Source of the DNA: Rhodoferax sp. WC2427
GTDB taxonomy: Bacteria > Pseudomonadota > Gammaproteobacteria > Burkholderiales > Burkholderiaceae_C
Reading direction: 5' to 3'
Assembly (NCBI RefSeq): GCF_040822085.1
Contig: NZ_CP162006.1
Span: forward strand, 558,001 to 622,000
Length of the DNA stretch: 64,000 nucleotides
Positions 4,607 through 62,274 of the stretch are shown here, one piece after another. The notes under the pieces were generated by a model. It searched no databases. It had not been told where the DNA came from and was given only the letters and a program-made list of their open reading frames with translations. Numbering within the stretch: position 1 is the stretch's first letter; each line of letters opens with the position of its first letter. Made by a program: the position numbers and the translations under genes.

Positions 4607-5205
4607 TTGGCTGCATCCGGTGAGAGGCGCAGGTTGCGGCTGCCGGACAGGCTCCAGTCGGATTGGCCCATGGCGCCAATCTGGAAAGGGCGTGGGAGCT
4701 GCGATACGTCGAGTCGAAAGCTGAATTCGGCGTGGGTCTTGCCGTCAAAGTCGACATCGGTGGCATCGGCGATGCGCCAGCGTGAAAACCGCTGTATGTT
4801 GGCCAGGGCGTCGGCGAGCGACTCGAAGTTCTGGTTCAGCACCACACCCAAGCCGCTATTGCCCATGGCGGAGGGGCCGACATTCAGGCGCCAGCGCCGG
4901 GTTAGCGGTTGGTAGGCCAGTCGCATGTAGCGGGCCTGGCTGGCCACGGCTTTGTCCGACCAGTACCAGCGGTCTCGTAGCACCTCGATCTCGGCCACGA
5001 AAAACATCGGAATGCCTTTGTGCAGCGCATCTTCCACCAGGCTGGGGAGTTCGAACTTCAAATTGGCAGAAAAAAACACCCCTGAATCATTGCGCTCGAT
5101 TTGCATCTGGTTGATTTCCACCAGTGTGCTCTGCGCCCGAGCAAAGGGCAAATAGCACAATAAAAGGTAGACGCACCAGCGCACCACGGCCCATTTAGGT
5201 CGCAT
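4603..5205 (-). CDS. DUF4390 secreted protein
   Basis: This protein of about 200 residues has an N-terminal signal peptide (hydrophobic WCVYLLLCYLPFA, cleavage probably after ARA) and a conserved DUF4390 body with VEINQMQIERND near its start. Family members sit between rsmB and an ntrY-like kinase in many Betaproteobacteria; the role is unknown, and a periplasmic function connected to the kinase is only a guess. I chose ATG 5205 because the signal peptide begins right after it; it overlaps rsmB by 11 nt. A start at 5235 is also open. The stop overlaps the kinase GTG. Confidence 0.8.
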   Translation of the reverse strand: MRPKWAVVRWCVYLLLCYLPFARAQSTLVEINQMQIERNDSGVFFSANLKFELPSLVEDALHKGIPMFFVAEIEVLRDRWYWSDKAVASQARYMRLAYQPLTRRWRLNVGPSAMGNSGLGVVLNQNFESLADALANIQRFSRWRIADATDVDFDGKTHAEFSFRLDVSQLPRPFQIGAMGQSDWSLSGSRNLRLSPDAAK

Positions 5206-6505
5206 TTTTTTCCAGTAGGGCGTAAAAGAATCCATCGTTGTCACGGATACGATTGTCCGGGACTGCTTCGTCCAAATCCCATGTACGGGGCAGTAAATGG
5301 CCGGGAGACGGTAGCAAACGGGCATCGGTGTGGTGTGCAAGAAACGTTTCGATCTGGTCTTGCCCCTCGGCACGGAATACCGAGCAGGTGCAATACAGCA
5401 AACGACCACCGGAACGTACCAGCGGCCAGAGTTGTCGCAAGAGGCTCGCCTGCAGGCGGGCCAATTGGGCAATATCGGTTTCGCGGCGCAGCCAGCGTAC
5501 ATCGGGATGGCGGCGCACGATGCCCGATGCCGTGCACGGTGCGTCGAGCAAAATGGCATCAAAGGGGCGTCCATCCCACCAGGTTGCAGGCTGGTTGGCA
5601 TCGGCCACCAGTACCGTGGCCTGTAGGCCCTGTCGCTCCAGATTGCGCTGGACGCGCTCGCAACGGATGGGGTCGATGTCGAGCGCCGTCACCTCGGCCG
5701 GGACTATTTCAAGCAGATGGACCGTTTTACCGCCAGGAGCGGCGCAGGCATCCAGAATACGCAAGGGCTGGCGCGTGTCCATACCGTCGAGAAGCAGCGG
5801 CGCCGCCATTTGGGCGGCTGCATCCTGGACCGATATAGCACCGTCGGAAAATCCTGGAATGTCTTGTACCGATCTGGCGCGGGCCAAGGCCAAACCCGAG
5901 TCTCCCACCAAGCTTGCTTCAATATTGATAGCTGCTAGCGCTGATTGAATAAGCGCAGGAGTCGTTTTTCTTACATTAACCCGTAACGTCATAGGCGCAT
6001 GCTGGTTGTTTGCCTGCAGGATCTCCTGCCAGCGTTGCGGCTGTTCATTTTTCAGCCGCTGTATCCACCACCGGGGGTGGTTCCACACAGCGACCGGGTC
6101 GCGGTCGGTGGCCGCCACCAGCGCTTCGCGTTCCCGCAAAAATCGGCGCAGGCAGGCATTGATAAAACTCGCTTGGGCTTTGGCTGGGCCCCGGTTGGCG
6201 GCTTCCACGGTTTGGTCCACCAGGGTGAATGCTTCGTAGGGTGCATCGGACTCTTGCCATGCCAGAGCCAGAGCCGTGCACAGCAACGCGTCGGCAGCGG
6301 GCGGGGGCGGGCGCTTGGCCAACTGCGCGCGCAAGGCTTCGGCGCGGCCGAGGTTGCGCAAACTATGGAATACCAGGGACTGCACACCTGGACGCAACGG
6401 ACCTTCTACAGCCGCCAACGCCGGTGTGGCGGAGGCTCCGTTGCGGATGGCATGCAAAACCTCTGCTGTTGCCAGTAGCTGACGCCAAAGGGGGATCTGC
6501 GCCAT
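5195..6505 (-). CDS. rsmB: 16S rRNA m5C967 methyltransferase RsmB
   Basis: This 436-residue S-adenosylmethionine-dependent enzyme methylates C967 of 16S rRNA. The N-terminal third is a NusB-like RNA-binding domain; the rest is a Rossmann methyltransferase with the SAM-binding DACAAPGGKT and the two catalytic cysteines in LLDAPCTASG and LLYCTCSVF. It is first in a tight group with DUF4390 and the two-component pair. The segment PALIQSALAAIN, in the linker before the methyltransferase core, is encoded by an antisense copy of the dispersed repeat (5921-5970), apparently read through without loss of frame. Confidence 0.95.
   Translation of the reverse strand: MAQIPLWRQLLATAEVLHAIRNGASATPALAAVEGPLRPGVQSLVFHSLRNLGRAEALRAQLAKRPPPPAADALLCTALALAWQESDAPYEAFTLVDQTVEAANRGPAKAQASFINACLRRFLREREALVAATDRDPVAVWNHPRWWIQRLKNEQPQRWQEILQANNQHAPMTLRVNVRKTTPALIQSALAAINIEASLVGDSGLALARARSVQDIPGFSDGAISVQDAAAQMAAPLLLDGMDTRQPLRILDACAAPGGKTVHLLEIVPAEVTALDIDPIRCERVQRNLERQGLQATVLVADANQPATWWDGRPFDAILLDAPCTASGIVRRHPDVRWLRRETDIAQLARLQASLLRQLWPLVRSGGRLLYCTCSVFRAEGQDQIETFLAHHTDARLLPSPGHLLPRTWDLDEAVPDNRIRDNDGFFYALLEKNAT
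5921..5970 (+). repeat. Dispersed three-part repeat, copy inside rsmB
   Basis: Plus-strand copy: ATAGCTGCT arm, GCGCTGATTGAATAAGCGC hairpin, then GGAGTCGTTTTT tail. It lies antisense to rsmB, where it translates as part of an extra-looking linker segment, and it is notably AT-richer than the flanking gene. Confidence 0.65.
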
Positions 6506-24582: not shown

Positions 24583-25449
24583 TCAGGGGGAAGTGCCGCC
24601 TTTGGTTTCCAGCGTCTGGTCGCGGGTGAAGCGAAAGCGCGACACCACCACCAGCTGGTCGACTTTAGCCCGCATCGCATCGCTGAACAGGCCAAACGGA
24701 CCGGCATTGCGCACGATGGCCTCGGCCCGCCGGTCCAGCGTGCGGTTGCCCGAACTTTCGGCGATTTGGGTGGCCAGCACCTGGCCGTCGAAGTTGACGG
24801 TGACGATCATGGTCAGCGCGCCATAGAGTTTTTTGCCTGCCAGTTCGGGGAAGTTTTCGGTGCCCCGGTCTTCCACCCGGCGGCGCAGGTTGTCGTAGTA
24901 CACCGCATACACCTCTTCGCGGGTGGCGGGGCTGACGTAGCGGCGCTTGGGGCGGGCGTTTTCCTGGTTGATGCGCCGTTCGATCTCGGCCAGCAGGTTG
25001 AGCAACTGGCGGCGTTTTTCTTCCTGCGCAGCGGCTTCGGGGGAGTTACTGGCCTTCTTGGGGTCTGGAATGGGCAGGCTCGCCAGCTGCTGGGTGACCT
25101 GCGCCAGCAGCATGGTTTGCTGCTGCTGCATCGCGTCCATCTTGCGCTGCGTGGCCTCCATGGTTTCACCCAGATCGGTGATGGCCGAAGGCGGCAGCGG
25201 CGTGGTGGCGCGGCCCGCATTGGCCTCGCCGCCCCCGGCCAGCGATGCCTGGGCGATGGCCGTGGCGCGCTCGGGCGGGGTGGTGGACTTGGCGTTGACC
25301 AAAATCACCTCCAGCGGCGTGTCCTGGAACACCCGATTGAAGGACTCGGGGTCGATGAAGCGCAGCGTCAGCAGCACCGCGTGCAGGGTGATGGACACCC
25401 CGAGTGCGATCTGCAGGGCGGTGAAGTTGCGTAGGAAGCGCCAGGTCAC
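24583..25449 (-). CDS. TonB-like energy transducer family protein
   Basis: This 288-residue protein has an N-terminal membrane helix (ALQIALGVSITLHAVLLTLRF), a long Gln/Glu-rich probable coiled coil (about 95-160) and a C-terminal TonB-like fold (YGALTMIVTVNFDGQVLATQIAESSGNRTLDRRAEAIV, in parts). Lack of the Pro-rich spacer and a missing exbBD neighbourhood argue for a TonB/TolA-like protein of unknown partner. The start is GTG at 25449, overlapping the TGA of the exoribonuclease gene (GTGA). Confidence 0.8.
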   Translation of the reverse strand: MTWRFLRNFTALQIALGVSITLHAVLLTLRFIDPESFNRVFQDTPLEVILVNAKSTTPPERATAIAQASLAGGGEANAGRATTPLPPSAITDLGETMEATQRKMDAMQQQQTMLLAQVTQQLASLPIPDPKKASNSPEAAAQEEKRRQLLNLLAEIERRINQENARPKRRYVSPATREEVYAVYYDNLRRRVEDRGTENFPELAGKKLYGALTMIVTVNFDGQVLATQIAESSGNRTLDRRAEAIVRNAGPFGLFSDAMRAKVDQLVVVSRFRFTRDQTLETKGGTSP

Positions 25450-27512
25450 GGTGCGGGTTCGACGGCGGATGCGGCGGCGGCTTCGGGCTCGTCCATATCG
25501 ACGGCGATGGCGATCGGCCCGGCGGCGGTGTCGTCCTCGTCGTCTTCGGTTTCTTCTTCGGCGGCTGCGTCCGATGCCACTTCGACCGGCGTGTCCAGCC
25601 GCTCGACCACGGTACCGTGCACATCCAGGGTAATTTCGTCGATGTCGCCCAGCTTGACCCGCACCTTGGCGCCGCGTGGCGCATCGCCCATCACCGGCAG
25701 TACCAGCGGTAAATCGTCCGCGCGGACCATGCCGTCCTTGAAGACGGTGCCGACGATTTCGGTGATGCCGTTTTGCTGCAGGTACTTGAGCGTCCAGAAG
25801 CGCTCCATCGCGCCCTGGTAGCCGTTGTAGGTGGCGTAGGCCGCGTCAAACATCGAGATGATGGAGAACAGGTCGGCATCCTTGGGCTTGAACGGCGCGG
25901 CCAGGGCGGCGGTCTTGCCGTGCCGCGCGCAGGCGATGATCTGCCACTGGTTGACCAGGTCGGTGTAGCGGCGCAGGGGCGAGGTGCTCCAGGCATAGCT
26001 TTTCACCCCGATGCCCGCGTGCGGCAGCGCCTTGGTGCCCATGCGCACCTTCACGCCGGGCAGCAGGCTGGCCTGGCTGCGGTAGATGCCGGGCACACCG
26101 TTCTCGGCCATCCACTGGCCCCAGGTACTGTTGGCCAGGATCATGGCCTCGGCCACCATCAGGTCCAGGGGCGCGCCACGTTGGCGGGTGGTGATTTGCA
26201 CCTGCTCGTCGCCCACCGGCTCGTCGGCGGTCTTGCCCAGCAGCTTGAAGTTGTAGTCGGGCCGGTTGAAGTTCTCGGGCTTGCCCCGCACCACTTCGCG
26301 CTGGGCTTTCAGGTGTTTCGCCAGTTTATACAAAAATGATAGCTGCTCACGCTCAATGGATAAGCGTGGAATGCCAATTTCATGCTCAAATCAGGGTTCT
26401 CCAGCCACTCTGCCGTGACCAGCGTATCGAGCTGGTCGTGGCGCAGATTGGCGGCAATGTGCACCCGCTCCAGCTTCGTCTCGGTGGCGGTGATCTCCAG
26501 CGTGGCCTCATCCAGCGTGGCGTACAGCGACACGGCGGGGCAGTCGCGGCCCTCTTGCAGGGTGTAGTTTTGCACCACCGCGTCGGGCAGCATGGTCAGC
26601 TTGTAGCCGGGCATGTAAACGGTGGACAGGCGGGCACGGCCCAACTGGTCGATGGCGCTGCCCGGCGTGATGGCCAGGCCGGGCGCGGCAATGTGGATGC
26701 CCAGCGTCACCGTGCCCGTACCCAGGCCCTGCACCGACAGCGCATCGTCGATTTCGGTGGTTTGCGAATCGTCGATGGAAAACGCCTGCGCGGTCGACAG
26801 CGGCAGGTCGTCGTTGATGAGCGGTGCGTCCAGGTTCTGGAAGCCCGTGCCCTTGGGGAAGTTTTCCAGCAAAAACCGCCGCCAGTGGAACTGGTAGGGC
26901 GAGTCGATGGCACCGGCGTGCTGCAGCAGTACCAGCGGCGCCTTGTGGGTGGCACGCGAGGCCTCCACCACGGCCTTGTATTCGGGGCCGTTTTTATCGG
27001 GTTTGAACAGTATTTTGTATAGCTGCTCACGCACAGCTGGCGGGCATGAGCCCTGGCTGAGCTCCTTCTGCCCAACGTGCAATTTGGATAGCAAGCTGCT
27101 GCTTCTTCTCGATGGCGGCCAGCGCCAGTTGCAGGATCTCGGCCGAGGCCTTGCGAAACCGCCCCTTGCCCGCGCGGCGGAAGTAATGCGGTGCGTCAAA
27201 CAGGCGCAGCAGCATGGCGGTTTGCTGCTCCAGCGTAGCGTTAACGCTGAAATAGTCGCGCGCCAGGTCGGCAAAGCCAAAGTCTTCCTCGGGGGCGAAC
27301 TCCCAGGCCATCTCCAGCTCGATGTCGGCGGCGACCAACTGGGCACCCTGCAACAAAATGGCGGGCGTGGGCTTGTCGAACTTCAGCAGCAGGTTGGCGG
27401 CCTTGACCTTGACCCGCTTGCCACTGTCGAGCTCGACCTGCGCGGAGGACTCCGCTTCGGACAAGATGCGTCCGGCCATGAATTTTCCGGCTTCTTCAAA
27501 TAATGCAAACAT
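25446..27512 (-). CDS. RNB-domain exoribonuclease (RNase II family), two compensating frameshifts
   Basis: 3'-to-5' exoribonuclease. As written the gene lies in three pieces. Residues from MFALFEEAGKFMAG to IARWAE are in one frame; ELSQGSCPPAV...EWLENPD, including the RNB metal-site region SIDDSQTTEIDDAL, is in a second; FEHEIGIPRL...YKLAKHLKAQRE to the C-terminus returns to the first. An extra G near 27065 and a missing T near 26388 explain both shifts; they cancel, giving 688 residues. Protein sequence is conserved on both sides of each break, so sequencing error or very recent decay is likely. A dispersed-repeat copy encodes IPRLSIEREQLSF. The C-terminal tail is very acidic. Confidence 0.85.
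26331..26380 (+). repeat. Dispersed three-part repeat, copy inside the RNB gene
   Basis: Plus-strand copy: GATAGCTGCT arm, CACGCTCAATGGATAAGCGTG hairpin, then GAATGCCAATTT tail. It is antisense to the host gene, read through in frame once the nearby one-base deletion (about 26388) is corrected. Confidence 0.65.
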
Positions 27513-33984: not shown

Positions 33985-34995
33985 ATGGCACTGGAGCGAC
34001 CTATTTTCTGGCTGGGTTTGGCGGGTCTGTCGCCGCAGCAGCGGGCCGCTTTGGTGGCCGTCTTGCCCTACCAGCCCACCAGTCTGCCTGCCTGGCGGGT
34101 GGCCAAATTCTCTGAAGCCGACGCCTGGTGCATCAGCGGTGGTGCCGCCCGGTTGCACGACGACGGCACCCTGACCGTTCCCGACAGCCGCAGCGCTGAA
34201 TCGGAAATGCTGCTCCATCTGGACCAGGTAGACCGGCCACTGGCCTTCACCAGGCCTCTGTCGGCCCCCGAGATCGAGCCCTTGACCACTTTCGAGCCCG
34301 AGTCGGAGCGCGCGGTGCGCATGGTGCTGAAAAAATTTGAAACCTGGCTGCAGCCGTTACGGGCGCAGTATTTTCTGGGGGCTTTGCTGCACCAGCGGTT
34401 GGGCAGTTTGCCGCTCGTGGCCTACGATCTGACGCACCAGGGCGTTCTGTTGGCAGTGGTGGATATTCCCAAGCGCCGTATCGATTATTTGGGAGATGCC
34501 AGCCCGGTGCAGTTGGAGCAGGCGGTGTGGGAGGTGCGTGGGCCCAGCGCGGAGCCCCTGCCATCCCGGTTCCAGAAAGTGGGTTTGCGGGAGGTGATGT
34601 GGCAGTTTGCCCAGCACTCTGCGGCCGATCTGCTGCCCGCCGTGTTCAAAACCGAGGCCCTGCGGCGGCTGCGCCAGCCCCTGGTGCCCGAGGCCTGGCT
34701 CAAGGACTCTCAGCGCACCGTCTTGCGCGCCCTGGAAATCGGCCCCTGCAGTCTGGAGCACTTGCTGCAAAGCGGCCTGAACCCAGAGCAACTGGGCCGG
34801 GACCTGGTCAGCCTGTATTTTGACGGGGCGCTGTCCACGGTTTCGGGCGAAGTGAACTGGCTATCGTCGGCCAACCAGAGGCCCTCGGTGTTCGACCCGT
34901 CATCACTGACCGAGGCCACCGCCAGCGCCCGCCTCGCAGCGGGTTCGCGTTACTCAGCGCCTTTTGCCGGGGGTGATACCACCATTCCGGAATAG
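33985..34995 (+). CDS. Conserved protein of unknown function
   Basis: I do not recognise this 336-residue protein. It has no signal peptide, membrane helix or metal motif; composition is Leu/Ala/Pro-rich. A possible helix-turn-helix lies near residues 265-300 (RTVLRALEIGPCSLEHLLQSGLNPEQLGRDLVSLYFDGAL, in parts), suggesting a winged-helix tail. The start ATG 33985 (MALERPIFW) is preferred; an open frame extends 60 nt earlier. It follows the DAHP synthase by 66 nt and may share its transcript. Confidence 0.65.
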   Translation: MALERPIFWLGLAGLSPQQRAALVAVLPYQPTSLPAWRVAKFSEADAWCISGGAARLHDDGTLTVPDSRSAESEMLLHLDQVDRPLAFTRPLSAPEIEPLTTFEPESERAVRMVLKKFETWLQPLRAQYFLGALLHQRLGSLPLVAYDLTHQGVLLAVVDIPKRRIDYLGDASPVQLEQAVWEVRGPSAEPLPSRFQKVGLREVMWQFAQHSAADLLPAVFKTEALRRLRQPLVPEAWLKDSQRTVLRALEIGPCSLEHLLQSGLNPEQLGRDLVSLYFDGALSTVSGEVNWLSSANQRPSVFDPSSLTEATASARLAAGSRYSAPFAGGDTTIPE

Positions 34996-35024
34996 GCATC
35001 TCGGGCGTATTTGGATTTATGGGT

Positions 35025-35080
35025 AAAAAGTGGCTCTCACGCTTATGGAATAAGCGTGAGAAGCTACTAATTTTGTAGCG
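35025..35080 (-). repeat. Dispersed three-part repeat at the mpl 3' end
   Basis: Best-preserved copy. Read on the minus strand: GCTACAAAATTAGTAGC arm, CTCACGCTTA-TTCCA-TAAGCGTGAG hairpin (10-11 perfect pairs), AGAGCCACTTTTT tail. It supplies the last codons (SLQN) and the TAG stop of mpl, and may act as its terminator. Confidence 0.8.
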
Positions 35081-36437
35081 ATCTCAAAAGTTTGGCGTGG
35101 ATACCGCCAAAGCCGCCGTTGCTCATGCACAGGATATGGTCGCCCGGCTGGGCGGCTGCCACCACCTGCGCCACCAATGCATCCACCGTGTCGGCCACCT
35201 GGGCCCGCGCGCCCATGGGCTCCAGCGCGCTATGGGCATCCCAGCCCAAGCCGCCACTGTGGCAAAACGCCAGGTCGGCATCTTCCAGGCTCCACGGCAA
35301 CTGGGCCTTCATGGCGCCCAGCTTCATGGTGTTGCTGCGCGGCTCGAACACCGCCAGGATACGCTGGTCGGGCCCAATACGGCGGCGCAGGCCGTCCACC
35401 GTGGTACGGATGGCGGTGGGGTGGTGGGCAAAGTCGTCGTACACGGTGATGCCGCGCACGCTGCCAATCACTTCCATGCGCCGCTTCACATTCTGGAACC
35501 CGCCCAGCGCCCGCGCTGCCACGTCGGCGGGAACGCCCACATGGTCGGCGGCAGCGATGGCCGCCAGCGCATTGAGCTGGTTGTGCACGCCCCCCAGCGC
35601 CCATTCCACCGTGGCCACCGGCTTGCCGTGCTGCAGCACCTGGAAGTGGTGCGGTTCGCCCTGGGCGGTGAAGTCGCTCACCGCTGCGCCAAAGCTGCGC
35701 ACTTCGCTCCAGCAGCCCTGGTGGAGTACGCGGGCCAGGCTTTCTTCCAGCCCGTTGGTGACCACCCGGCCGGTGCTGGGCACAGTGCGCAGCAGGTGGT
35801 GGAACTGGCGCTCGATGGCGGGCAGGTCGTCAAAAATATCGGCGTGGTCGAATTCCAGGTTGTTCAGCACCGCCGTGCGCGGGCGGTAGTGGACAAACTT
35901 GCTGCGCTTGTCGAAGAAGGCGGTGTCGTACTCGTCGGCCTCGATCACAAAGGTCTTTCCCGCACCCAAACGGGCCGATACCCCGAAATTCAGCGGCACG
36001 CCACCGACCAGAAAGCCCGGCTGCAGCCCGGCGTGTTCCAAAATCCACGCCAGCATCGCCGTGGTGGTGGTCTTGCCGTGCGTGCCCGCCACCGCCAGCA
36101 CATGGCGCCCTTGCAACACGTGCTCGGCCAGCCACTGCGGCCCGCTGGTGTAGGGCAGGCCTGCGTCCAAAATGGCCTCCATCAGCGGAAATTTCGGCGC
36201 GCCATCGGCGGCGCGGGCGCGCGACACCACGTTGCCGACCACGAACATGTCCGGCTCCAGTGCCAACTGGTCGGCCGAGAAGCCTTCGATGAGCCCGATG
36301 TCCAGTGCGCGCAACTGGTCGCTCATGGGGGGGTAGACCCCCGCATCGCAGCCCGTCACCCGGTGCCCAGCCTCCCGCGCCAAAGCGGCCAAACCTCCCA
36401 TGAAGGTGCCGCAAATACCCAAAATATGAATGTGCAT
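35067..36437 (-). CDS. mpl: UDP-N-acetylmuramate:L-Ala-gamma-D-Glu-meso-DAP ligase
   Basis: This 456-residue Mur ligase recycles cell-wall tripeptide by joining it to UDP-MurNAc. Visible parts: N-terminal HILGICGTFMGGLAALAR nucleotide site, AVAGTHGKTTTTAMLAWIL P-loop, EADEYDTAFFDKRSKFVHY, and the C-terminal FAHHPTAI domain. The stop and last few residues come from the dispersed repeat. With ampD further along, this marks peptidoglycan recycling capacity. Confidence 0.95.
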   Translation of the reverse strand: MHIHILGICGTFMGGLAALAREAGHRVTGCDAGVYPPMSDQLRALDIGLIEGFSADQLALEPDMFVVGNVVSRARAADGAPKFPLMEAILDAGLPYTSGPQWLAEHVLQGRHVLAVAGTHGKTTTTAMLAWILEHAGLQPGFLVGGVPLNFGVSARLGAGKTFVIEADEYDTAFFDKRSKFVHYRPRTAVLNNLEFDHADIFDDLPAIERQFHHLLRTVPSTGRVVTNGLEESLARVLHQGCWSEVRSFGAAVSDFTAQGEPHHFQVLQHGKPVATVEWALGGVHNQLNALAAIAAADHVGVPADVAARALGGFQNVKRRMEVIGSVRGITVYDDFAHHPTAIRTTVDGLRRRIGPDQRILAVFEPRSNTMKLGAMKAQLPWSLEDADLAFCHSGGLGWDAHSALEPMGARAQVADTVDALVAQVVAAAQPGDHILCMSNGGFGGIHAKLLRSLQN

Positions 36438-47546: not shown

Positions 47547-48978
47547 TGTCTTGCGGGGTGGCGATGTTCAGGCGCTCAATGCGGTAGCGGATCTGGCGCA
47601 GGCTCAGGCCCAGGCGTTGGGCCGTGGCGGTGCGGTTGAAGCCGGTGTCCAGCAGCACCTTGACCAGAATCTCGCGCTCCTGCTGGTCCAGAAAGGCCTG
47701 CAGGTCGCTGGGGATCTCGGCGCAGGGCGCGGCAGCCGCCAGCAGGCTGCTCTGCGCCAGCGGTGTGGGCTCGGTGGCATCAAAGTCGGCATTGAAATCG
47801 ACGTGTAAGGCATCGCCGTCACCCATGGCCACGGCGCGGTGCAGCAGGTTTTCCAGCTCGCGCACATTGCCGCTCAGCGGATGGCTGGCCAGTTGCGCCA
47901 GCAGTTCGGGTGACAGCAGCGGCACCGGCATGCCGGACTCCAGGGCGATGCGGGCCAGCAGTGCCTCGCACAGCGCGGGCAGATCGCCCCGGCGCTCACG
48001 CAGCGGGGGCACGGCGATTTCAATCACATTCAGCCGGTAGTACAGGTCTTGCCGGAAGCGGCCGGCCTTCACATCGGCGGCCAGGTCCTTGTGGGTGGCG
48101 CTGACGATGCGCACGTCCACCGCGTCCTCCTGGGTGGAGCCCAGCGGGCGCACACTGCGCTCCTGGATGGCGCGCAGCAGCTTGGACTGCATGGCCAGCG
48201 GCAGGTCGCCAATCTCGTCCAGAAACAGCGTGCCGTCGCGGGCCGCCTGGAAGTAGCCCTGCCGGTCTTGCAGTGCGCCGGTGTACGAGCCCTTCTTGGC
48301 CCCAAAGAACTCCGCCTCCAGCAGGTTCTCGGGGATGGCGCTGCAGTTCACCGCCACCAGCGGCCCGGCGGCGCGGTGGCTGTTGGCGTGCAGGGCCTGG
48401 GCCACCAATTCCTTGCCGGTGCCCGATTCGCCGCGCACCAGCACCGGTGCCATGCTGCGCGCCACTTTCACGATGCGCTGCTTGACGCCTTGCATGGCCT
48501 CCGAGCTTCCTACCAATTTTTGTAGCGCTCCCTGCCCACCAGATAAGCGCAAGGAGGCTTTTTCGTTAGTAGTTGCGGCGCGTGCGGACTGGCTGGTGTC
48601 CTGGATGGCCGAGGCCACCACGGCACGGAATTGTTTCAAATCCACCGGCTTGGTCAGGTAGTCGAAGGCCCCGGCCTTCAGCGCCTCGACCGCGTTCTCG
48701 GCCGAGCCATAGGCGGTCATGACGATGACGCGCTCTGGCCGCTGCTGGGCTTTCAGGCCATGCAGCAGGGCCAGGCCCAGGCCGTCGGGCAGGCGCATGT
48801 CGGTGATCACCACGTCAAACCGCTTGCGCTCCAGCAGTGCGCGGGCTTCCTGCAGGTCGGCGGCGGTGTCGATGCGGTAGCCCTCGCGCAGCAAGGTCAG
48901 CTCGTACAGCATGCGCAGGTCGGGCTCGTCGTCCACCACCAGGACGGATGCTGCCAAGATTGAAGGGGGCTGGGCCAT
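47527..48978 (-). CDS. pilR: Sigma-54-dependent response regulator PilR
   Basis: This 483-residue regulator, paired with PilS, activates type IV pilus genes in related bacteria. It has a receiver (Asp in VVITDMRLPDG), an AAA+ sigma-54 domain with GESGTGKELVAQA and a GSYTGA loop (a Tyr variant of GAFTGA), and a Fis-type C-terminus (NRTATAQRLGLSLRQIRYRI). A segment of about 17 residues between receiver and AAA+ (NEKASLRLSGGQGALQK) is encoded by a dispersed-repeat copy. The stop overlaps ampD. Confidence 0.9.
   Translation of the reverse strand: MAQPPSILAASVLVVDDEPDLRMLYELTLLREGYRIDTAADLQEARALLERKRFDVVITDMRLPDGLGLALLHGLKAQQRPERVIVMTAYGSAENAVEALKAGAFDYLTKPVDLKQFRAVVASAIQDTSQSARAATTNEKASLRLSGGQGALQKLVGSSEAMQGVKQRIVKVARSMAPVLVRGESGTGKELVAQALHANSHRAAGPLVAVNCSAIPENLLEAEFFGAKKGSYTGALQDRQGYFQAARDGTLFLDEIGDLPLAMQSKLLRAIQERSVRPLGSTQEDAVDVRIVSATHKDLAADVKAGRFRQDLYYRLNVIEIAVPPLRERRGDLPALCEALLARIALESGMPVPLLSPELLAQLASHPLSGNVRELENLLHRAVAMGDGDALHVDFNADFDATEPTPLAQSSLLAAAAPCAEIPSDLQAFLDQQEREILVKVLLDTGFNRTATAQRLGLSLRQIRYRIERLNIATPQDNEPQDL
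48514..48577 (+). repeat. Dispersed three-part repeat, copy inside pilR
   Basis: Plus-strand copy: AATTTTTGTAGC arm, a diverged CCC...GATAAGCGC hairpin, AAGGAGGCTTTTT tail. It is antisense to pilR and translated in frame within the inter-domain linker. Confidence 0.55.
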
Positions 48979-51834: not shown

Positions 51835-53208
51835 ATGGCCTCCGCTCTTACCGACAAACTCTCCCGCCTGGTCAAGGAAATCCGGGGCCAGGCCCGCATC
51901 ACCGAGTCCAACGTGGCCGACATGCTGCGCGAAGTGCGCATGGCCCTGCTGGAGGCCGACGTGGCCCTGCCGGTGGTGCGCGACTTCATTGCGCGGGTGA
52001 AAGAAAAAGCCCTGGGCCAGGAGGTGATGGGTTCGCTGTCGCCCGGCCAGGCGCTGGTGGGCATCGTCAACCGCGAACTCAGCCGCACCATGGGCGAAGG
52101 CGTCAGCGACATCAACCTGGCCACCCAGCCGCCCGCCGTGATCCTGATGGCCGGTCTGCAGGGCGCGGGTAAAACCACCACCACCGCCAAGCTGGCCAAG
52201 CACCTGATCGAGAAGCGCAAGAAGAAGGTGCTCACCGTGTCGGGCGACGTGTACCGCCCGGCCGCCATCGAGCAGCTGAAGATGGTTACCAAGCAGGCCG
52301 GGGCCGAGTGGTTCCCCAGCACGCCCGACCAGAAGCCGCTGGACATTGCCGCCGCCGCCATCGACTACGCCCGCAAACACTATTTTGATGTGCTGCTGGT
52401 CGACACCGCGGGCCGCCTGGCCATTGACGAAGTGCTGATGCGCGAAATCAAGGACCTGCACGCCTTCCTCAAACCCGTCGAAACCCTGTTCGTGGTCGAT
52501 GCCATGCAGGGCCAGGACGCGATCAACACCGCCAAGGCCTTCTCCGATGCGCTGCCGCTCACCGGCATCATCCTCACCAAGACCGACGGCGACTCGCGCG
52601 GCGGTGCGGCCCTGTCGGTGCGCCACGTCACCGGCGTGCCCATCAAGTTTGCCGGTACCAGCGAAAAGATCGACGGCCTGGAGGTGTTCGATGCCGAACG
52701 CCACGCCGGGCGGGTGCTGGGCATGGGCGACATCCTGGCCCTGGTCGAGCAGGTCACCGCCGGTGTCGACATGGCGGCGGCGCAAAAGCTGGCCGCTAAG
52801 GTCAAAAGCGGCGAAAGCTTCGACCTGAACGACTTCCTCAGCCAGATCCAGCAGATGAAGCAAATGGGCGGCCTGTCCAGCCTGATGGACAAACTGCCCG
52901 CCCAGATGGCCGCCAAGGCCGGCTCCATGGACATGGACAAGGCCGAGCGCGACATCCGCCGCAAGGAAGGCATCATCTACAGCATGACCCCGCTGGAGCG
53001 CCGCAAGCCCGACCTCATCAAAGCCACCCGCAAACGGCGCATCGCCGCCGGTGCCGGCGTCCAGGTGCAAGAGGTCAACCGCATGCTCAACGAGTTCAGC
53101 CAGATGCAGGACATGATGAAGAAGATGAAGGGCGGCGGCATGATGAAGATGATCAAGCGCATGGGCGGCATGAAGGGCCTGGGTGGCGGCGGCATGCCCA
53201 AGTTCTAG
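51835..53208 (+). CDS. ffh: Signal recognition particle protein Ffh
   Basis: This 457-residue SRP GTPase binds signal peptides and 4.5S RNA. It has N and G domains (GLQGAGKTTTTAKLAKHL, DTAGRL, TKTDGDSRGGAA) and the methionine-rich M domain (QIQQMKQMGGLSSLMDKL...RRKEGIIYSMTPLERRKP). Length and end match Ffh. The next 420 bp contain no complete gene. Confidence 0.98.
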   Translation: MASALTDKLSRLVKEIRGQARITESNVADMLREVRMALLEADVALPVVRDFIARVKEKALGQEVMGSLSPGQALVGIVNRELSRTMGEGVSDINLATQPPAVILMAGLQGAGKTTTTAKLAKHLIEKRKKKVLTVSGDVYRPAAIEQLKMVTKQAGAEWFPSTPDQKPLDIAAAAIDYARKHYFDVLLVDTAGRLAIDEVLMREIKDLHAFLKPVETLFVVDAMQGQDAINTAKAFSDALPLTGIILTKTDGDSRGGAALSVRHVTGVPIKFAGTSEKIDGLEVFDAERHAGRVLGMGDILALVEQVTAGVDMAAAQKLAAKVKSGESFDLNDFLSQIQQMKQMGGLSSLMDKLPAQMAAKAGSMDMDKAERDIRRKEGIIYSMTPLERRKPDLIKATRKRRIAAGAGVQVQEVNRMLNEFSQMQDMMKKMKGGGMMKMIKRMGGMKGLGGGGMPKF

Positions 53209-53223
53209 GCATCTCTTCTTACT

Positions 53224-53286
53224 AATAAATTAGGCTGCCAGCGCTTATTCCATCAGCACGAGCAGCTACTTATTCGATAGCATTTC
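53224..53286 (-). repeat. Dispersed three-part repeat downstream of ffh
   Basis: Minus-strand copy: ATGCTATCGAATAAGTAGC arm, hairpin with GTGCTGATGGAATAAGCGC, GGCAGCC tail. Its arm supplies the last residues and stop of the glycosyltransferase fragment at 53266-53400. Confidence 0.7.
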
Positions 53287-53400
53287 GGTATTTTTCAGCC
53301 ACCGGGCAAACACCGCCCGGTAGGCCTGTTCCACCGCGCGGGCAAAGCCGGGCTCGTCCACCCGGGGGCTGGCCTGCATTGGGCGGCGTAGCCCGGGCGG
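53266..53400 (-). pseudogene. Fragment of an O-GlcNAc-transferase-like (GT41) gene
   Basis: The minus strand encodes MQASPRVDEPGFARAVEQAY and RAVFARWLKN, which matches the C-terminal end of SPINDLY/GT41 glycosyltransferases (ASPL.D...FARALE.AYR..W..W). No upstream part is present, so this is a remnant lying between two copies of the dispersed repeat; the stop is given by the repeat (NTEMLSNK). Identification rests on about 30 residues. Confidence 0.5.
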
Positions 53401-53438
53401 CCTATGCCGGGGCCTTTCGTGCGCAAAACCCGCCCCAT

Positions 53439-53512
53439 TGAAAATAGTAGATATTTTCAGCCATTCGCGCTTATTCCATCGGCACAAAAAGCTATCTTTT
53501 GCATAGCAAATT
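53439..53512 (-). repeat. Dispersed three-part repeat, second copy after ffh
   Basis: Minus-strand copy: TTGCTATGCAAAAGATAGC arm, GTGCCGATGGAATAAGCGC hairpin, ATGGCTGAAAA tail. It flanks the GT41 fragment on the other side. From 53513 to the first chemoreceptor I see nothing definite. Confidence 0.6.
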
Positions 53513-53627
53513 CCAGAGGCCGGTCGGGCATCCGGTTAAACCCTAGGCGGGCAGCTTTACCCGGTTGTAGCGGGGATATTGGGTTATTCTTAACAATTAC
53601 TTACATTTTGCGGCAGAGACCCAGCTC

Positions 53628-55169
53628 ATGAAAAACCTGAAAATTTCGACCCGGCTGCTGGTGCTGGTGGGGGTGTTGTCGGCTTTGCTGGTGGCGGTGG
53701 GGGCGCTGGGGTTGCTGGGCATTGCCAAATCCAATGCGGCCATGGAGTCGATGTACCGCAACCGCATGCAGACCCAGAGCGCGGTGGCCGAATTCCAGTT
53801 TTTGACCATGCGCAACCGGCAACTGATCTCCAACGCCTTGCTGTCGCCGGTGCCCGAGAAGATTGCCAAGGCCACGGCCGAGGCCGAGGCCAATATCCTC
53901 CGGGTGAATAAGGTCTGGGCCGCGCTGGAGGCGACCCCCATGGGCCCGGGCGGCGATACCCTCGTCAAAGCCATTGCCGCCAAACAGCAAAAAATCATGC
54001 AGGAGGGTCTGCGCCCCGCGCTGCAGGCCCTGGCCGATGAAGACGTCGCCACGGCGCGCGTGCTGGCGGTGCGCAAGTTTGGCGATTTGTTCGACCCCAT
54101 CTTTATCGATATCAGCGGCCTGCTGGGGCTGGCCCAGGCCGATAGCCAGCGCGACTTCGAAGATGCCGTGGCCCGCTATGCCGCCATCCGCGCCACCTCG
54201 ATTGCGTCCATCCTGGCGGGTATCGTGTTTGCAGCCCTGTTTGGCTACACCCTGATGCGCGGCATCACCGGGCCGCTGTTGCGGGCGGGCGAAGTGGCCA
54301 ACGCGGTGGCGCAGGGGCATTTGAACCAGGCCATCGACACCTCGGGCAAAGACGAAGTCGCGGTGGTGATGCAGGCCCTGGCCGCCATGCAGGCCAGCCT
54401 GTCGCAGGTGGTGGCCACGGTGCGACAGGGTTCGGAGAGCGTGTCCACCGCCAGCGCCGAAATTGCCCAGGGCAACCACGACCTGAGCGCCCGCACCGAA
54501 CACCAGGCCAGCGCGCTGGAGCAAACTGCAGCCAGCATGGAAGAGCTGGGCTCTACCGTGCGGCAAAACGCCGACAGCGCGGCCCAGGCCAACCAGCTGG
54601 CCCAGCGCGCCAGCACCGTGGCGGTACAGGGCGGCGCGGTGGTGGCCGAGGTGGTGACCACCATGCGGGGCATCAACGACAGCTCGAAAAAGATCTCGGA
54701 CATCATCGGCGTGATCGACGGCATCGCCTTCCAGACCAACATCCTGGCCCTGAACGCCGCCGTGGAAGCCGCCCGGGCGGGCGAGCAGGGCCGGGGCTTT
54801 GCGGTGGTGGCCAGCGAGGTGCGCTCCCTGGCCGGGCGCAGCGCCGATGCGGCCAAGGAAATCAAGCTGCTGATCAGCGCCAGCGTGGACCGGGTGGCCC
54901 AGGGCACGGTGCTGGTGGACAAGGCGGGCACCACCATGGCCGAGGTGGTGTCTGCCATCCGCAGTGCCACCGACATCATGGGCGAGATCAGTGCCGCCAG
55001 CCGCGAGCAAAGCCTGGGGGTGTCCCAGGTGGGCGAGGCCGTGACCCAGATGGACCAGGCCACCCAGCAAAACGCCGCGCTGGTGGAAGAAATGGCGGCC
55101 GCCGCCAGCAGCATGCGGGGCCAGGCGCAAGACCTGGTGGACGCGGTGGCGGTGTTTGTACTGAAGTAA
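53628..55169 (+). CDS. Methyl-accepting chemotaxis protein
   Basis: This 513-residue chemoreceptor has two membrane helices (about 8-30 and 190-212) around a four-helix-bundle-type periplasmic domain, HAMP, and a long cytoplasmic signalling domain with the hairpin tip [30 protein letters not shown] that binds CheA/CheW. There is no NWETF-type C-terminal pentapeptide. The signalling half is nearly identical in DNA to the next chemoreceptor. Confidence 0.93.
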
Positions 55170-57181: not shown

Positions 57182-58750
57182 ATGCGCAACAACCAACCCA
57201 TTCTGAACCAGGAATATCCCTTCCCCAGTGGGCAGACCTTGGTGTCTACGACCGATCTGCAGGGCAACATCCGCTACTGCAATCCGTACTTCATCGAGGT
57301 CAGCGGCTTCAGCCGCGACGAGTTGCTGGGGCAGCCGCACAACCTGATTCGCCACCCGGACATGCCCGAAGAGGCCTATCGGGACATGTGGGCCACCATC
57401 AAGAGCGGGCGGCCCTGGTCGGCGATGGTGAAGAACCGGCGCAAGGACGGCAGCTACTACTGGGTGCGGGCCAACGTCACGCCGCTGATGGAAGGCACCC
57501 AGCCCACCGGCTACATGTCGGTGCGCACCGAACCCCTGCGCGCCGACATCGACGCCGCCACCGCGCTGTACGCCCGCATGCGCGCCGAAAAGGCCCAGGG
57601 CCAGCGCATCACCTGCCTGGACGGCGGCCATGTGCGGGTCAACAGCCTGGCCGGGCGTATCGCCACGGCGCTGAGGCTGGGGCTGGCGGGCAAGCTGACC
57701 CTGGCTGCCGGGGCCCTGGCGGCCCTGGGCGTGGCCGCAGGGGTGGCCATCGGCGGGGCCTCGGTGGGCTCCATGGCGCTGGTGGCGGTACCCACGGTGC
57801 TGGTGTGCGGGCTGGTGGGCGGCTGGCTGCTGAAGACCTTGGCCATTGATCCGCTGCTGAGCCTGGTGGCTTTCTCCAACCGGATGGCCGCCGGGGACCT
57901 GACGCAGAGCCTGCAAAGCCAGGGCACCGATGCCATGGGCAGCCTGTCGGCGGCGCTGAACCAGCTCAACGTCAACCTGCTGTCCATCGTGCGCGATGCA
58001 CGCACCGGGGTGGAAAACATGTCGATTTCCACCCAGGAGATTGCGGCGGGCAACAACGATCTGTCGCAGCGCACCGAAAGCCAGGCCAGCAACCTGGAGC
58101 AAACCGCCGCCTCGATGGAGCAACTCACCGCCACCGTACGGCAGAACACCGACTCCGCCATCCAGGCGGCCCAACTGGCCGCGCAGGCCGATGCCGTCAC
58201 CCGCCGCGGCGGCGAGGCGGTGCAGGACGTCACCCGCACCATGCGCGAGATCAGTGCCTCGTCGGCCCGTATCGGCGAGATCATCCAGGTGATCGACAGC
58301 ATTGCTTTCCAGACCAACATTCTGGCCCTGAACGCCGCCGTGGAAGCGGCCCGTGCGGGCGACCAGGGGCGGGGTTTTGCGGTGGTGGCCTCGGAGGTGC
58401 GGGCGCTGTCGCAGCGCACGGCCTCGGCCGCGCGCGAGGTCAAGACCCTGATTGCCGAGTCTGCCGCCACGGTGGACAGCGGCAGCCGCCTGGCCGACGC
58501 CGCCCAGGTCACCATGGGCGACGCCCTGGCCTCGGTGAGCCGGGTGACTTTGCTGGTGAATGAAATCAGCGCCGCCTCGCGCGAGCAGCAGGAGGGCATT
58601 GCGCAGGTGAATGACGCCATCACCCAGATGGACAACATCACCCAGCAAAACGCCGCGTTGGTCGAGCAGATTGCCGCCGCGGCCACCGCGCTGCACGGGC
58701 AGTCGGAGGCGGTGTCGGAGAGCGTGCGGGTGTTCCGGCTACAGCGCTAA
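57182..58750 (+). CDS. PAS-domain chemoreceptor (Aer-like)
   Basis: This 522-residue receptor begins with a PAS domain (about 10-120: [38 protein letters not shown], in parts) like the FAD-binding energy sensor Aer, then two adjoining membrane helices (about 165-215), HAMP and a signalling domain with [30 protein letters not shown]. It probably senses redox state or oxygen. GAGGA lies 8 nt before ATG 57182; ATGs at 57122 and 57170 are less likely. Confidence 0.92.
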
Positions 58751-58802: not shown

Positions 58803-58870
58803 ATTTATAAGATTTAACGGGTTTGCGCCCATGGATAGGGCGTAAGCAGCTATTTTTTTTAATAGCAACT
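58803..58870 (-). repeat. Dispersed three-part repeat at the metalloprotease 3' end
   Basis: Minus-strand copy beginning one base after the metalloprotease TAG: TTGCTATTAAAAAAAATAGC arm, TTACGCCCTATCCATGGGCGC hairpin, AACCCGTTAAA tail. Confidence 0.7.
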
Positions 58871-61550
58871 AGCTGCTGGACCGGACCAGCTTGGCAGACA
58901 GGGCGTTGCGCAAGGTCAGGGCGTTGTCGGCCAAGTGCTGCTGGATATCGGCGTTGTTGCCACGGCGCTGCTGGGCGGCGCTGATGCGTGCCAGCAAGGC
59001 CATGGCCTGCCCGCGCACCATGCTGCGGGCGTCGGCGCGCGTGGCACCGGAGGGGCGCAGCACCAGGGCGGCCAGGCGCTCGGTGTAGGCGTGTTGCAGC
59101 TCGCGCTGTTCGGCGTTGGGGGCGGCGGTGTCGGTCCAGACCTCGGCTTCCACCCGGCGCACCAGCTCGGGCAAGCGCAGCGCGGCCTCCGAGGGGGCCA
59201 GGCGGCTGTCGTTGTCCAGCAGCTTGCCCGCCAGCGCATCGCCCATCAGGCTGTTGAGCACCAGCAGGCGCAGGCCAAACACCTCGCGTGCCAGGGGCAG
59301 GTCGCCCGCGCTGGCGGGGGCTTCGGCGCGGGCCAGGTAGTCGGGCACCAGGCGGCGTTGGAGCTGGGGCGAGACGGCAAAACTGCGGGTGGCCAACACC
59401 TCGTGCAGCAGCAGATCGAGCGCGGCGCGTTGGTCGGCGGCGGGGGTGTTTTGGGCCGGATCGCGCCCGGTGTTGGCAAAGTCACGCAGCATGCGCACCC
59501 CGCCCAGCTGGCGCAGCAGAATGCCGGTGGCCGCGCCTGCATCCGACAGCGATTCGCGCAGCAGGCGGCGCACGCGGCTCCAGTCCTGGTCGGGCAGGGG
59601 CTGCAGGGTTTCCAGCCGCTGGAACACGCCGTGGGCAATGGCGAAGCGCTGGCGGGCGTAGGCCACCGGGTTGTCGCCCAGGTCGCGCTGCAGGGTTTCG
59701 GGGTCGGCCCCAAGGTAGAAGTCTTCGTCGGTGCCAAAGGCCAGTGCAGGCTCGGCGCTGCGGCTGGCAATCTGCGCCAGCGTGGTGGCTTCCGCCGCGG
59801 GGGCAATGGGACGGTAGGCGTAGTCGATGGCCCAGTAGTCGTACGGGCCCAGCGTGGTCTGGACGGCCACCGGGCGCGGCTGGCCGGGCAGGCCCGGGCC
59901 GATGGGAAGGTTGATCGGCAGGTAGTCCATCACCGAGCCACTCAGGCCCTGCGCCTGGGTGAAGGCCGGGTCGGCCAGCTGCGCCTGGGTGAACAGCCGC
60001 GAGGCGCGGAAGTTGTGCCGCAGGCCCAGGGTGTGGCCCACCTCGTGCACTGTCAGGCTGGTGATGTAGTCGCGCACGAATTGCTCGGCTTGCGGGCTGT
60101 CCGGGGCCATGTCGCCCTGGGTGCTGAGCAGGTCCATCGCGTAGGCCAGCTGCTCGCCCGCTTCTGCGCCAATGTCGCAGTCCTGGCTGGCCTGCGAGGC
60201 TTCCAGGGCGGTGGGTTCCAGGCGGCGCACCGCGGAGGCGCGGGTGGCGCGCACGCTTTGGCTCTCGATGCGGATGTCGGCGTCCAGGATTTCACCGGTG
60301 CGCGGGTCCACGTGGCGCGGGCCGATGGCGGCAAAGCCGGTGCTGTTGTTGGTGGACCAGCGCACCGAGGCGCGGCCAAAGTCCAGGGTGTCGAAGTCCG
60401 CGTCGTCGGCCTGCTGCTCTACCCGGATCGCGTTGTGGAAGCCGATCCGCTCAAACGCCGGGTTCCACGCCAGGATGCCCGCGCGGATGGCGTCGCGGTA
60501 TTTCACCGGCACGCTGCGGTCGATCCAGTAGGTGATGGGTTTTACCGGCTCGGACAGCTCGGCCTGCGGGTCCTGCTTTTCCAGCCGCCAGCGGGCGATG
60601 AAGCGCTGCCGGGCAGTGGGGGCCAGGTCGTCGCCAAAGTTTTCCACCGACTCCACAAAGTGGCCGATGCGCGGGTCGGCCAGGCGCGGGGCCATGGTCT
60701 GCGCAGGCAGGCGCGCCAGCGAGTAGTTGATCTGGATGAACATGCTGCGCGGGTCCACCAGGTTCTGCGGCGTGCCGGGCAGGTTGCTGCCAGGCGCAGG
60801 CAGGGCGATACCGGCGGTGGCGTAGTGGTTCATCACCTCCAGCACCAGCAGGTCGGGCGTGCCGCGCACCTTCAGGATGGCCGAGTTGCGCATGTCCACG
60901 CCGTAGTTTTGCCGGTAGGTGTGGGCCAGCGTCTGGGCCACGCCGCCCATGTCGTTGATGAACAGCGCACCCGCATCCACCAGCACGCTCTGGCGGTTCG
61001 GGTGGGGCTGGCTGGCCACCGGGGTGCTGCCCAGCAGGCTGGGGGCGTAGGCGGCGGCCACGGCGCGGGCCTCGGGCGTGCCGGGCGGGGCCACGAAGTC
61101 GGTGTTGCGCGCCACCAGCTGCACCACGTTGTGCACGCGGCGAAATTCCACCAGGCGGGGCGCCAGCATGCGGCCACCATACAGCCCGCCTTCGCCAATG
61201 CCATTGGCCATCTTGGGCGATAAAAAGAAAGGCTTGCCAAAGTCGTCCGGCCCCAGCTCCAGCCAGAAACGCTCGTCGCGCTGGTACATCGAAAACAGCC
61301 CGATGCTGCGCTGGGTGCCCTGCAACACGCTGGCAAACAGCGGCAGGGGCGAGGGCGGCGCACCGGGGGCCCGGGGCGCGCTGGCGGCCGATTGCGCCGC
61401 CACTGCTGCGGTGGTGGCCACGGTGGCCGCCGCCTGTGCCGTCTGGGCCGCTGCCGCGGCCACTTCCAGGTTGATTTTGGTGGTGGGGGTGGCGCAACCT
61501 GACAGCACAAAGGCCAAGGTCAACGTGGCGCGGAGTCGATGCTGGGTCAT
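58869..61550 (-). CDS. Zinc metalloprotease, lipoprotein (DUF5117/DUF4953 type)
   Basis: This 893-residue protein has a lipoprotein signal peptide ending in LSGC (Cys about 19), an Ala-rich spacer, a beta-rich N-terminal domain (DUF5117-like), then a metzincin-type zinc motif HEVGHTLGLRHNF (HExxHxxGxxH) near residue 505 and a long C-terminal helical region. It is probably anchored to the outer membrane facing the periplasm; substrate unknown. The 3' end abuts a dispersed repeat. Confidence 0.87.
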   Translation of the reverse strand: MTQHRLRATLTLAFVLSGCATPTTKINLEVAAAAAQTAQAAATVATTAAVAAQSAASAPRAPGAPPSPLPLFASVLQGTQRSIGLFSMYQRDERFWLELGPDDFGKPFFLSPKMANGIGEGGLYGGRMLAPRLVEFRRVHNVVQLVARNTDFVAPPGTPEARAVAAAYAPSLLGSTPVASQPHPNRQSVLVDAGALFINDMGGVAQTLAHTYRQNYGVDMRNSAILKVRGTPDLLVLEVMNHYATAGIALPAPGSNLPGTPQNLVDPRSMFIQINYSLARLPAQTMAPRLADPRIGHFVESVENFGDDLAPTARQRFIARWRLEKQDPQAELSEPVKPITYWIDRSVPVKYRDAIRAGILAWNPAFERIGFHNAIRVEQQADDADFDTLDFGRASVRWSTNNSTGFAAIGPRHVDPRTGEILDADIRIESQSVRATRASAVRRLEPTALEASQASQDCDIGAEAGEQLAYAMDLLSTQGDMAPDSPQAEQFVRDYITSLTVHEVGHTLGLRHNFRASRLFTQAQLADPAFTQAQGLSGSVMDYLPINLPIGPGLPGQPRPVAVQTTLGPYDYWAIDYAYRPIAPAAEATTLAQIASRSAEPALAFGTDEDFYLGADPETLQRDLGDNPVAYARQRFAIAHGVFQRLETLQPLPDQDWSRVRRLLRESLSDAGAATGILLRQLGGVRMLRDFANTGRDPAQNTPAADQRAALDLLLHEVLATRSFAVSPQLQRRLVPDYLARAEAPASAGDLPLAREVFGLRLLVLNSLMGDALAGKLLDNDSRLAPSEAALRLPELVRRVEAEVWTDTAAPNAEQRELQHAYTERLAALVLRPSGATRADARSMVRGQAMALLARISAAQQRRGNNADIQQHLADNALTLRNALSAKLVRSSS

Positions 61551-62271: not shown

Positions 62272-62274
62272 GGG

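Follow-up and report, generated by a model that had tools for sequence, protein, structure and literature searches.

A dispersed REP/MITE-like palindromic repeat at gene 3' ends in Rhodoferax sp. WC2427 and its possible role as a two-way gene-end signal

Introduction

Does a short palindrome that recurs along a bacterial chromosome survive only where it does little harm, or is it kept for what it does at the ends of neighbouring genes? A ~60-base element in Rhodoferax sp. WC2427 raises this question. In the 64,000-nucleotide stretch of this genome analysed here (the window), it had been predicted from the letters alone to occur in at least nine copies of three-part design, possibly as a repeat moved by a transposase. 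According to the accessible parts of two papers, REPs lie mainly in convergent and unidirectional gaps near 3' ends, with a few in genes (PMC3733652), and RAYTs are flanked by two inverted REPs, RAYT-REP pairs having been reported in gammaproteobacteria (PMC2817692). Below, G000 denotes the genome of the window, G007 a relative in the same genus, and other G numbers the further genomes compared.

Results

A three-part palindrome with several hundred predicted copies

A covariance model (R1; 65 positions, 17 pairs) trained on 35 copies (seven window copies among them) recognised eight of the nine predicted copies (hit starts 5914, 26325, 35017, 53219, 53445, 55285, 58803 and 62274; E 1e-22 to 5e-11), the stretch 48514-48577 not being a member. 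Since seven of these eight were training rows (58803 was not), their scores are partly built in. A position matrix of 54 positions, built from 30 G000 copies outside the window, also recovered all eight (scores 17.9-63.6) and added two window places, 31415 (19.1) and 61576 (12.6), while five Markov shuffles gave no matrix hit at 8 or above. The features of the window are as follows.

5914..5978, plus strand: copy within the reading frame (5195-6505, minus strand) of an RsmB/F-type rRNA methyltransferase (Pfam); R1 62.8 bits; kept in G007
26325..26389, plus strand: copy inside an RNB-domain ribonuclease coding region (Pfam halves); R1 53.1 bits
31407..31470, minus strand: predicted half copy, first dyad only, inside an ORF; weak R1 hit, 17.9 bits, E 0.0028; stretch conserved in G007
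35017..35081, minus strand: type copy; R1 69.6 bits; first dyad 35079-35063 (GCTAC-N7-GTAGC), main palindrome ~35064-35032, tail 35031-35017
35067..36437, minus strand: Mur-ligase gene (ORF list, Pfam Mur_ligase, sequence), its stop codon within the first dyad of the type copy
48514..48577, plus strand: predicted copy judged a non-member; within a gene similar to sigma-54 response regulators (NCBIfam); without R1 hit at E<=0.01
53219..53283, minus strand: copy just downstream of an SRP54-domain gene (51835-53208; Pfam); R1 68.2 bits
53445..53509, minus strand: another copy with the same orientation, 226 bp beyond the first in their shared gap (alignment); R1 53.5 bits
55285..55349, minus strand: copy downstream of a chemotaxis-receptor-like gene (53628-55169; Pfam) and before another same-direction ORF (context); R1 53.4 bits
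58803..58868, minus strand: copy in the convergent gap between 57182-58750 (plus) and 58869-61550 (minus), from context; R1 38.6 bits
62274..62338, plus strand: copy that takes up the convergent gap separating a DTW-domain gene with its end at 62271 from a PriA-like gene with its end at 62333 (Pfam); R1 67.1 bits

The type copy sits between convergent ORFs ending at 34995 (plus) and 35067 (minus). The candidate at 48514-48577 was excluded by the absence of both an R1 hit (E<=0.01) and a position-matrix hit; the likeness of its gene to sigma-54 response regulators is below curated cut-offs, and its sequence is mostly retained in G007 and G002, with mainly the first part present in G003 and G005. 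As for the two possible half copies, the one at 31446 coincides with the weak R1 hit (E 0.0028), while the one at 3101 has none but matches a looser pattern in its first dyad.

The high-scoring copy at 5914-5978 makes no obvious insertion relative to the methyltransferase Pfam domain. The RNB-domain ribonuclease region (25446-27346) comprises two ORFs near the inserted element, and G007 has a single called ORF spanning both. At 53178-53575 the window holds two direct copies where G007 holds one that resembles a recombinant of both, its two sides matching the two window copies.

The claimed three-part anatomy held up. The element is ~58-65 bp long, with two dyads and A/T-rich sides. On the forward strand, columns 3-19 form the first dyad (GCTAY-N7-RTAGC), whose nine inner bases are ~74% A/T; columns 20-50 form an imperfect palindrome, TGCT[T/C][G/A][C/T]GC-TTAT-NNN-ATAA-GC..; and columns 51-65 are an A/T-rich tail with frequent TTT or AAA, which takes the place of the fixed GGAGCC-like tail proposed originally. 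R1 hits reach 78 nt for some copies; in the two seen aligned, the first dyad is longer. The consensus carries TAG and TAA stops on both strands, and the element is ~40% G+C and occurs mostly as single copies.

An excess over background was evident across the genome, where TAGCTGCTNGCGCTT with at most one mismatch matched 175 times versus 7 in a reversed control, and GCTA-N9-TAGC-N-GCT-N3-GC-N11-GC matched 200 times versus 0. Within 424 kb of sampled chromosome, R1 found 59 hits at E<=0.001 (51 places once opposite-strand hits were merged) and the position matrix 64, with none in the reversed control of the scanned sequences; extrapolation gives ~575-720 copies per 4.78 Mb genome. The best 150 candidates scored in an R1 scan of the genome all had E below 4e-17. 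Rfam at its gathering score returned five tRNA matches only from the window, none to the element.

The element prefers convergent over divergent gaps in two of three samples

Copies were mapped against gene ends using gene calls made by our own script for the gap counts. Across positions 458001-722000 of G000 (264 kb), the element occupied 15 of 28 convergent gaps, 8 of 168 co-directional gaps and none of 28 divergent gaps (Fisher 4.6e-6 and 9.7e-10). The corresponding counts in 270 kb of G007 were 12/22, 11/164 and 1/21, and those in eight other G000 stretches (160 kb) 6/20, 7/101 and 2/15 (convergent versus divergent, P 0.42). The element thus lies at gene 3' ends, and in two of the three samples it favours 3'-to-3' gaps relative to divergent ones. 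In 60 kb from three other genera, convergent gaps hold 5 of 11 places, and no place was found in 5 divergent gaps.

Several occupied convergent gaps, 48-75 bp long, barely exceed the element itself, and called ORFs contain 7 of the 33 copies found along the 264 kb. Orientation bias relative to the replication strand gave P 0.075 for the 150 best hits, with the origin assumed at position 0. High copy number combined with 3'-end and convergent siting, as described for REPs of the GTAG type, is found for this element. Such siting alone would be equally expected of a harmless passenger.

Orthologous gaps are filled in some genera and free in others

We compared 40 genomes at a convergent gap between genes that we take, by recognition, to be mutY-like and rapZ-like (37 fetched genomes with both genes close together, plus G000, G007 and G002; copies judged by eye). 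Nine carry a clear copy (G000, G007, G002, G022, G011, G118, G102, G017 and G101) and two a doubtful one (G125 and G098), and the gap is element-free in the other 29, where its length ranges from -68 to 150 bp and is mostly below 60. The first dyad points toward mutY in G000, G007, G002 and G022, and toward rapZ in G102, G017, G101 and G118. The copies in G011, G118, G102 and G017 are longer forms of ~85-110 bp with an extra segment in the palindrome apex. At a second convergent gap, presumably between a cheB-like and an ABC-F-like gene, the element is present in 4 of 13 genomes, the copy of G102 being long. A regular expression for the long form, which also missed long forms read by eye, matched once in L118 and not in G000a, G007a or G002a. 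Long forms with an additional apex segment were also seen at L098, L145, L081, L095 and L101, from four other genera.

Orthologous gaps that are filled or unfilled, and that hold longer or reversed versions where filled, point to repeated colonisation. Between genera, these are the filled and unfilled sites that mobility of a MITE would leave, if the direction of change is as we infer; separate insertion in different genera is the simplest reading, the alternative being loss in many genera. We found no target-site duplication and no exact within-species empty site, and no autonomous parent transposon was seen in the sequence fetched, where the right arm is present in 131 of 144 half-element hits.

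A search of relatives returned R1 matches at E<=1e-4 in 44 of 120 sampled genomes of the family, scanned with stricter filters and with the best 43 candidates per genome scored. No R1 hit at E<=0.001 came from 24 genomes of 24 other families of the order. A long exact pattern matched two named contigs, a Giesbergeria and an Acidovorax MAG, both Comamonadaceae; one 91-base query found no match in plasmids and one exact pattern none in viral contigs. The dispersed ~60-base palindrome is a real, REP/MITE-like mobile repeat of the Rhodoferax genome, its dispersal being supported by the several hundred copies (extrapolated), the 3'-end siting, the filled and unfilled orthologous gaps and the opposite orientations among genera.

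Copies are retained and their core letters conserved

Within the genus, 26 of the 33 copies from the 264-kb stretch can be anchored in G007. R1 recognises a counterpart there for 24 of the 26, a single G007 copy serving for two of them. Among 13 orthologous pairs outside coding sequence, changes affected 4 of 156 positions in the dyad arms and GC core versus 41 of 156 in the loops, a contrast somewhat inflated by counting only pairs in which R1 recognised the copy in both genomes; it is still significant when the core is set against half the loop rate (P 4e-6). We read this as constraint acting mainly on the letters. Retention and core constraint together suggest a role at gene ends.

The same counts bear on the rival that we take most seriously even though we regard it as unlikely, namely that a REP/MITE-like repeat without host function survives as a pure passenger where it is least harmful, at gene 3' ends. 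The depletion of divergent gaps in two of three samples, the poor folding of most copies (below) and the 7 of 33 copies within called ORFs all fit a passenger, but core letters in place far better conserved than the loops, and the keeping of 24 of 26 anchored copies, argue against it.

A RAYT gene is a candidate mover

G000 contains one Y1 gene, which scores 80.1 with the NCBIfam model of the REP-associated tyrosine transposase (cut-off 80). The search for a transposase in the genome, which had been proposed with the element, thus yielded one RAYT, with an element copy abutting its 3' end, but two element-rich genomes gave no Y1 match. These are G027 and G125, both ~100% complete; across the family, 88 of 120 genomes have such a match, many of them element-less. 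Of the 31 genomes in which R1 gave 10 or more hits, 28 have Y1 genes, against 60 of the 89 others. The G000 gene (L031 1400-2270) is flanked by GGGGTCAGA and TCTGACCCC sequences and was considered together with L119-L138. The element-bearing genome G022 gave twenty Y1 transposase matches, several equal in score.

At the RAYT loci of other element-bearing genomes (~3.3 kb each), R1 found a hit in 5 of 20 at E<=0.002. With the RAYT frames located by tblastn in all 41 loci (a short motif placed 7/20), an element-like half, GCT[A/C]Y-N4..10-GAT, was found directly before TGTCCC on the 3' side of RAYT in 14 of 21 element-bearing genomes versus 0 of 20 element-less ones (Fisher 4e-6), a count that takes in G000, uses a motif written after viewing the element-bearing flanks and includes more distant RAYTs among the element-less loci. 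This half corresponds to half of the first dyad of the element, and shuffling the same bases gives 0.007 per locus. Among loci that carry the TGTCCC tag and reach 59% identity, the counts were 14/20 versus 0/7 (P 0.002). In 20 of 21 element-bearing genomes, the conserved TGTCCC is found no more than 150 nt 3' of RAYT. On the 5' side the half motif occurs in 1/21 element-bearing and 1/20 element-less loci, and a whole first dyad in 3/21, so that RAYT is accompanied by an element-like half at its 3' side only and not by two inverted copies. As an ordinary gap for comparison, the one between the mutY-like and rapZ-like genes holds the element in 9 of 21 element-rich genomes, and 14/21 at RAYT is not significantly higher (P 0.21). 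A GT(A/G)G head directly 5' of the palindrome was not found, the base before TAG being A in 17, G in 12 and C in 1 of 30 copies, and G in 56 and A in 44 of 100 copies.

RAYT was first set aside as the mover on account of the 5/20 loci and the Y1-less G027 and G125, and was reinstated as a rival after the comparison of 3' flanks; its standing rose from remote to still rather unlikely because the one-sided 3' half motif was found on recheck. The rival holds that the element is a true REP mobilised by the RAYT of the family, and it is compatible with either a gene-end or a passenger reading. It draws on the single G000 RAYT with a copy abutting its 3' end, the half motif before TGTCCC with its low chance expectation, the frequency of Y1 genes in genomes with at least 10 R1 hits and an RTAG ahead of the palindrome that recalls the GT(A/G)G head, but it must contend with a half motif that is one-sided, a 3' occupancy not significantly above that of an ordinary gap, R1 hits at few loci, element-rich genomes without a Y1 match and the lower similarity of the RAYTs at many of the 20 element-less loci, for which the matched contrast is 14/20 versus 0/7. 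What is seen at the 3' end of RAYT may be the mark of a genuine partnership or just another gene end occupied by the element.

Most copies fold poorly and covariation is confined to a few pairs

The stem covariation claimed at the outset is weakly supported: 1 of 19 pairs departs from expectation in one set and 2 of 4 inner pairs in another. The departing pair among 100 copies chosen by independent columns (position matrix) is 29-39 (P 0.006), with 22-46 and 24-44 borderline (0.052 and 0.059). Among 100 listed of the 200 core-pattern matches, which were unselected on the inner stem, pair 29-39 matched in 61 versus 51.2 expected (P 0.006) and 30-38 in 40 versus 29.2 (P 0.007), and the inner pairs 31-37 and 32-36 were not above expectation. 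The inner pairs of the first dyad showed no covariation. In 93 copies from five genomes, a set that includes orthologues and some chance matches, 29-39 stood at 52 versus 31.2, with weaker signals at 32-36 and 22-46. Strong RNA covariation was rejected, the paired cells and covariation score of the 35-row set lying within those of shuffles; pairs and cells changed on both sides were somewhat high there (59 and 30 of 500 shuffles as high; 27 and 22 in a second count). Compensated double changes between window and G007 orthologues numbered 8 versus 6.4 expected (P 0.27; 17 orthologous pairs counted and 3 of unequal length left out). In G002 and G003, the copies orthologous to the one at 62274 have inner stems that differ yet still pair, and G007 has other sequence at that place.

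Of 100 copies, 27 have a main hairpin that folds with z below -3 on the forward strand and 31 on the reverse. Among eight window folds, two are strong (both strands of 35017, z -8.4 and -7.4), two near -2.5 and four between 0 and -1. At least five T among the eight positions after the stem were found in 41 (forward), 23 (reverse) and 6 (both) of 100 copies, so U-tracts are poor, and the stable hairpin followed by a U-tract of a Rho-independent terminator is seen in a minority of copies only. The proposed selection on a folded RNA is, with such covariation and with most copies folding poorly, weakly supported at best.

It is very unlikely that the element is a bidirectional intrinsic terminator of the classical type, under selection as an RNA hairpin with a U-tract. 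Such a terminator would account for the 3'-3' siting, the strong hairpins of copies such as 35017, the differing yet pairing-competent inner stems of the 62274 orthologues and the covariation at 29-39, but poor U-tracts, z near 0 in several copies and the lack of covariation at most pairs speak against it, and a terminator needs no sequence shared across loci. Least likely of all is a binding site for a putative chromosome-organising or supercoil-relieving protein where converging transcription builds stress, which would suit the conserved letters, the little pairing constraint and the A/T tracts on either strand but has no candidate protein and does not require mobility among genera.

Discussion

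Like the present element, NEMIS/Correia and RUP are short, dispersed and mobile-looking; they differ from it in the target duplication and parent transposon, which were not found here. The available part of a paper on BRE (Beta-proteobacterial repeat element) names them as small repeats and describes BRE itself as ~90 bp long, 69% G+C in Bordetella, often tandem and present in at most 29 copies per genome (PMC3110155). BRE is likewise a small, mostly intergenic betaproteobacterial repeat that also occurs in Comamonadaceae, but the present element, at ~40% G+C and mostly single, is set apart from it by that description rather than by sequence (PMC3110155).

In the accessible parts of the work on GTAG/CGTC REP families, the shared traits are short palindromes in high copy near 3' ends, mainly in convergent and unidirectional gaps with few intragenic, and a RAYT with a related half in its 3' flank, here seen in most element-bearing genomes tested (PMC3733652, PMC2817692). 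Unlike these REPs as described there, the present element has no fixed GTAG head, carries an extra upstream dyad (GCTA..TAGC), is longer and has its RAYT flanked on one side (PMC3733652, PMC2817692). The accessible text of PMC3733652 makes no mention of Polaromonas, Rhodoferax, Acidovorax, Burkholderia or Betaproteobacteria.

No published name for the element was found in the literature searched, and TAGCTGCTTGCGC matched no paper. Two potential novel motifs appear in the accessible part of PMC5217627: GCTTAT(N)5AAGCG of Acidovorax ebreus (114 copies, 44 convergent, 4 divergent and 59 co-oriented) and ATAGCT(N)22CAAAAG of Polaromonas naphthalenivorans (125 copies, 34 convergent). The former equals the apex of the present element and agrees with its convergent bias, and the latter fits its left part (PMC5217627). 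From this match in sequence we infer that these motif pairs, printed in 2017, are the present element, unnamed there; in that part of the paper the motifs are statistical, with role unassigned and without anatomy, mobility, orthology or family-wide distribution (PMC5217627).

We favour, at a probability of about one half, the reading that the element is a short non-autonomous mobile repeat of REP/MITE-like kind, probably kept as a two-way gene-end signal. An enzyme for which the RAYT of the family is a candidate would insert copies right at stop codons or next to them; the two dyads and the A/T sides would then help to end or protect both converging transcripts, and copies would be kept for it. 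Such a signal would be read more through its conserved letters than through a stable RNA hairpin. A bolder form, which we hold to be improbable, is that this mobile gene-end signal moves among genomes and genera, plugs convergent gaps and gives stops on both strands, and is preserved since a putative protein reads GCTAY-N7-RTAGC and GC-N11-GC to end or insulate transcription on both sides without the classical hairpin and U-tract.

If the favoured reading of a mobile repeat kept as a gene-end signal is true, about half of the convergent gene pairs in 264 kb (15/28) carry one dispersed element, and the ends of many genes across a large environmental family would be shaped by a mobile repeat. 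With this element it can be tested directly whether REP-like repeats act as gene-end signals or ride along as passengers, and also whether a family-wide, mostly single-copy RAYT serves a repeat without the GTAG head.
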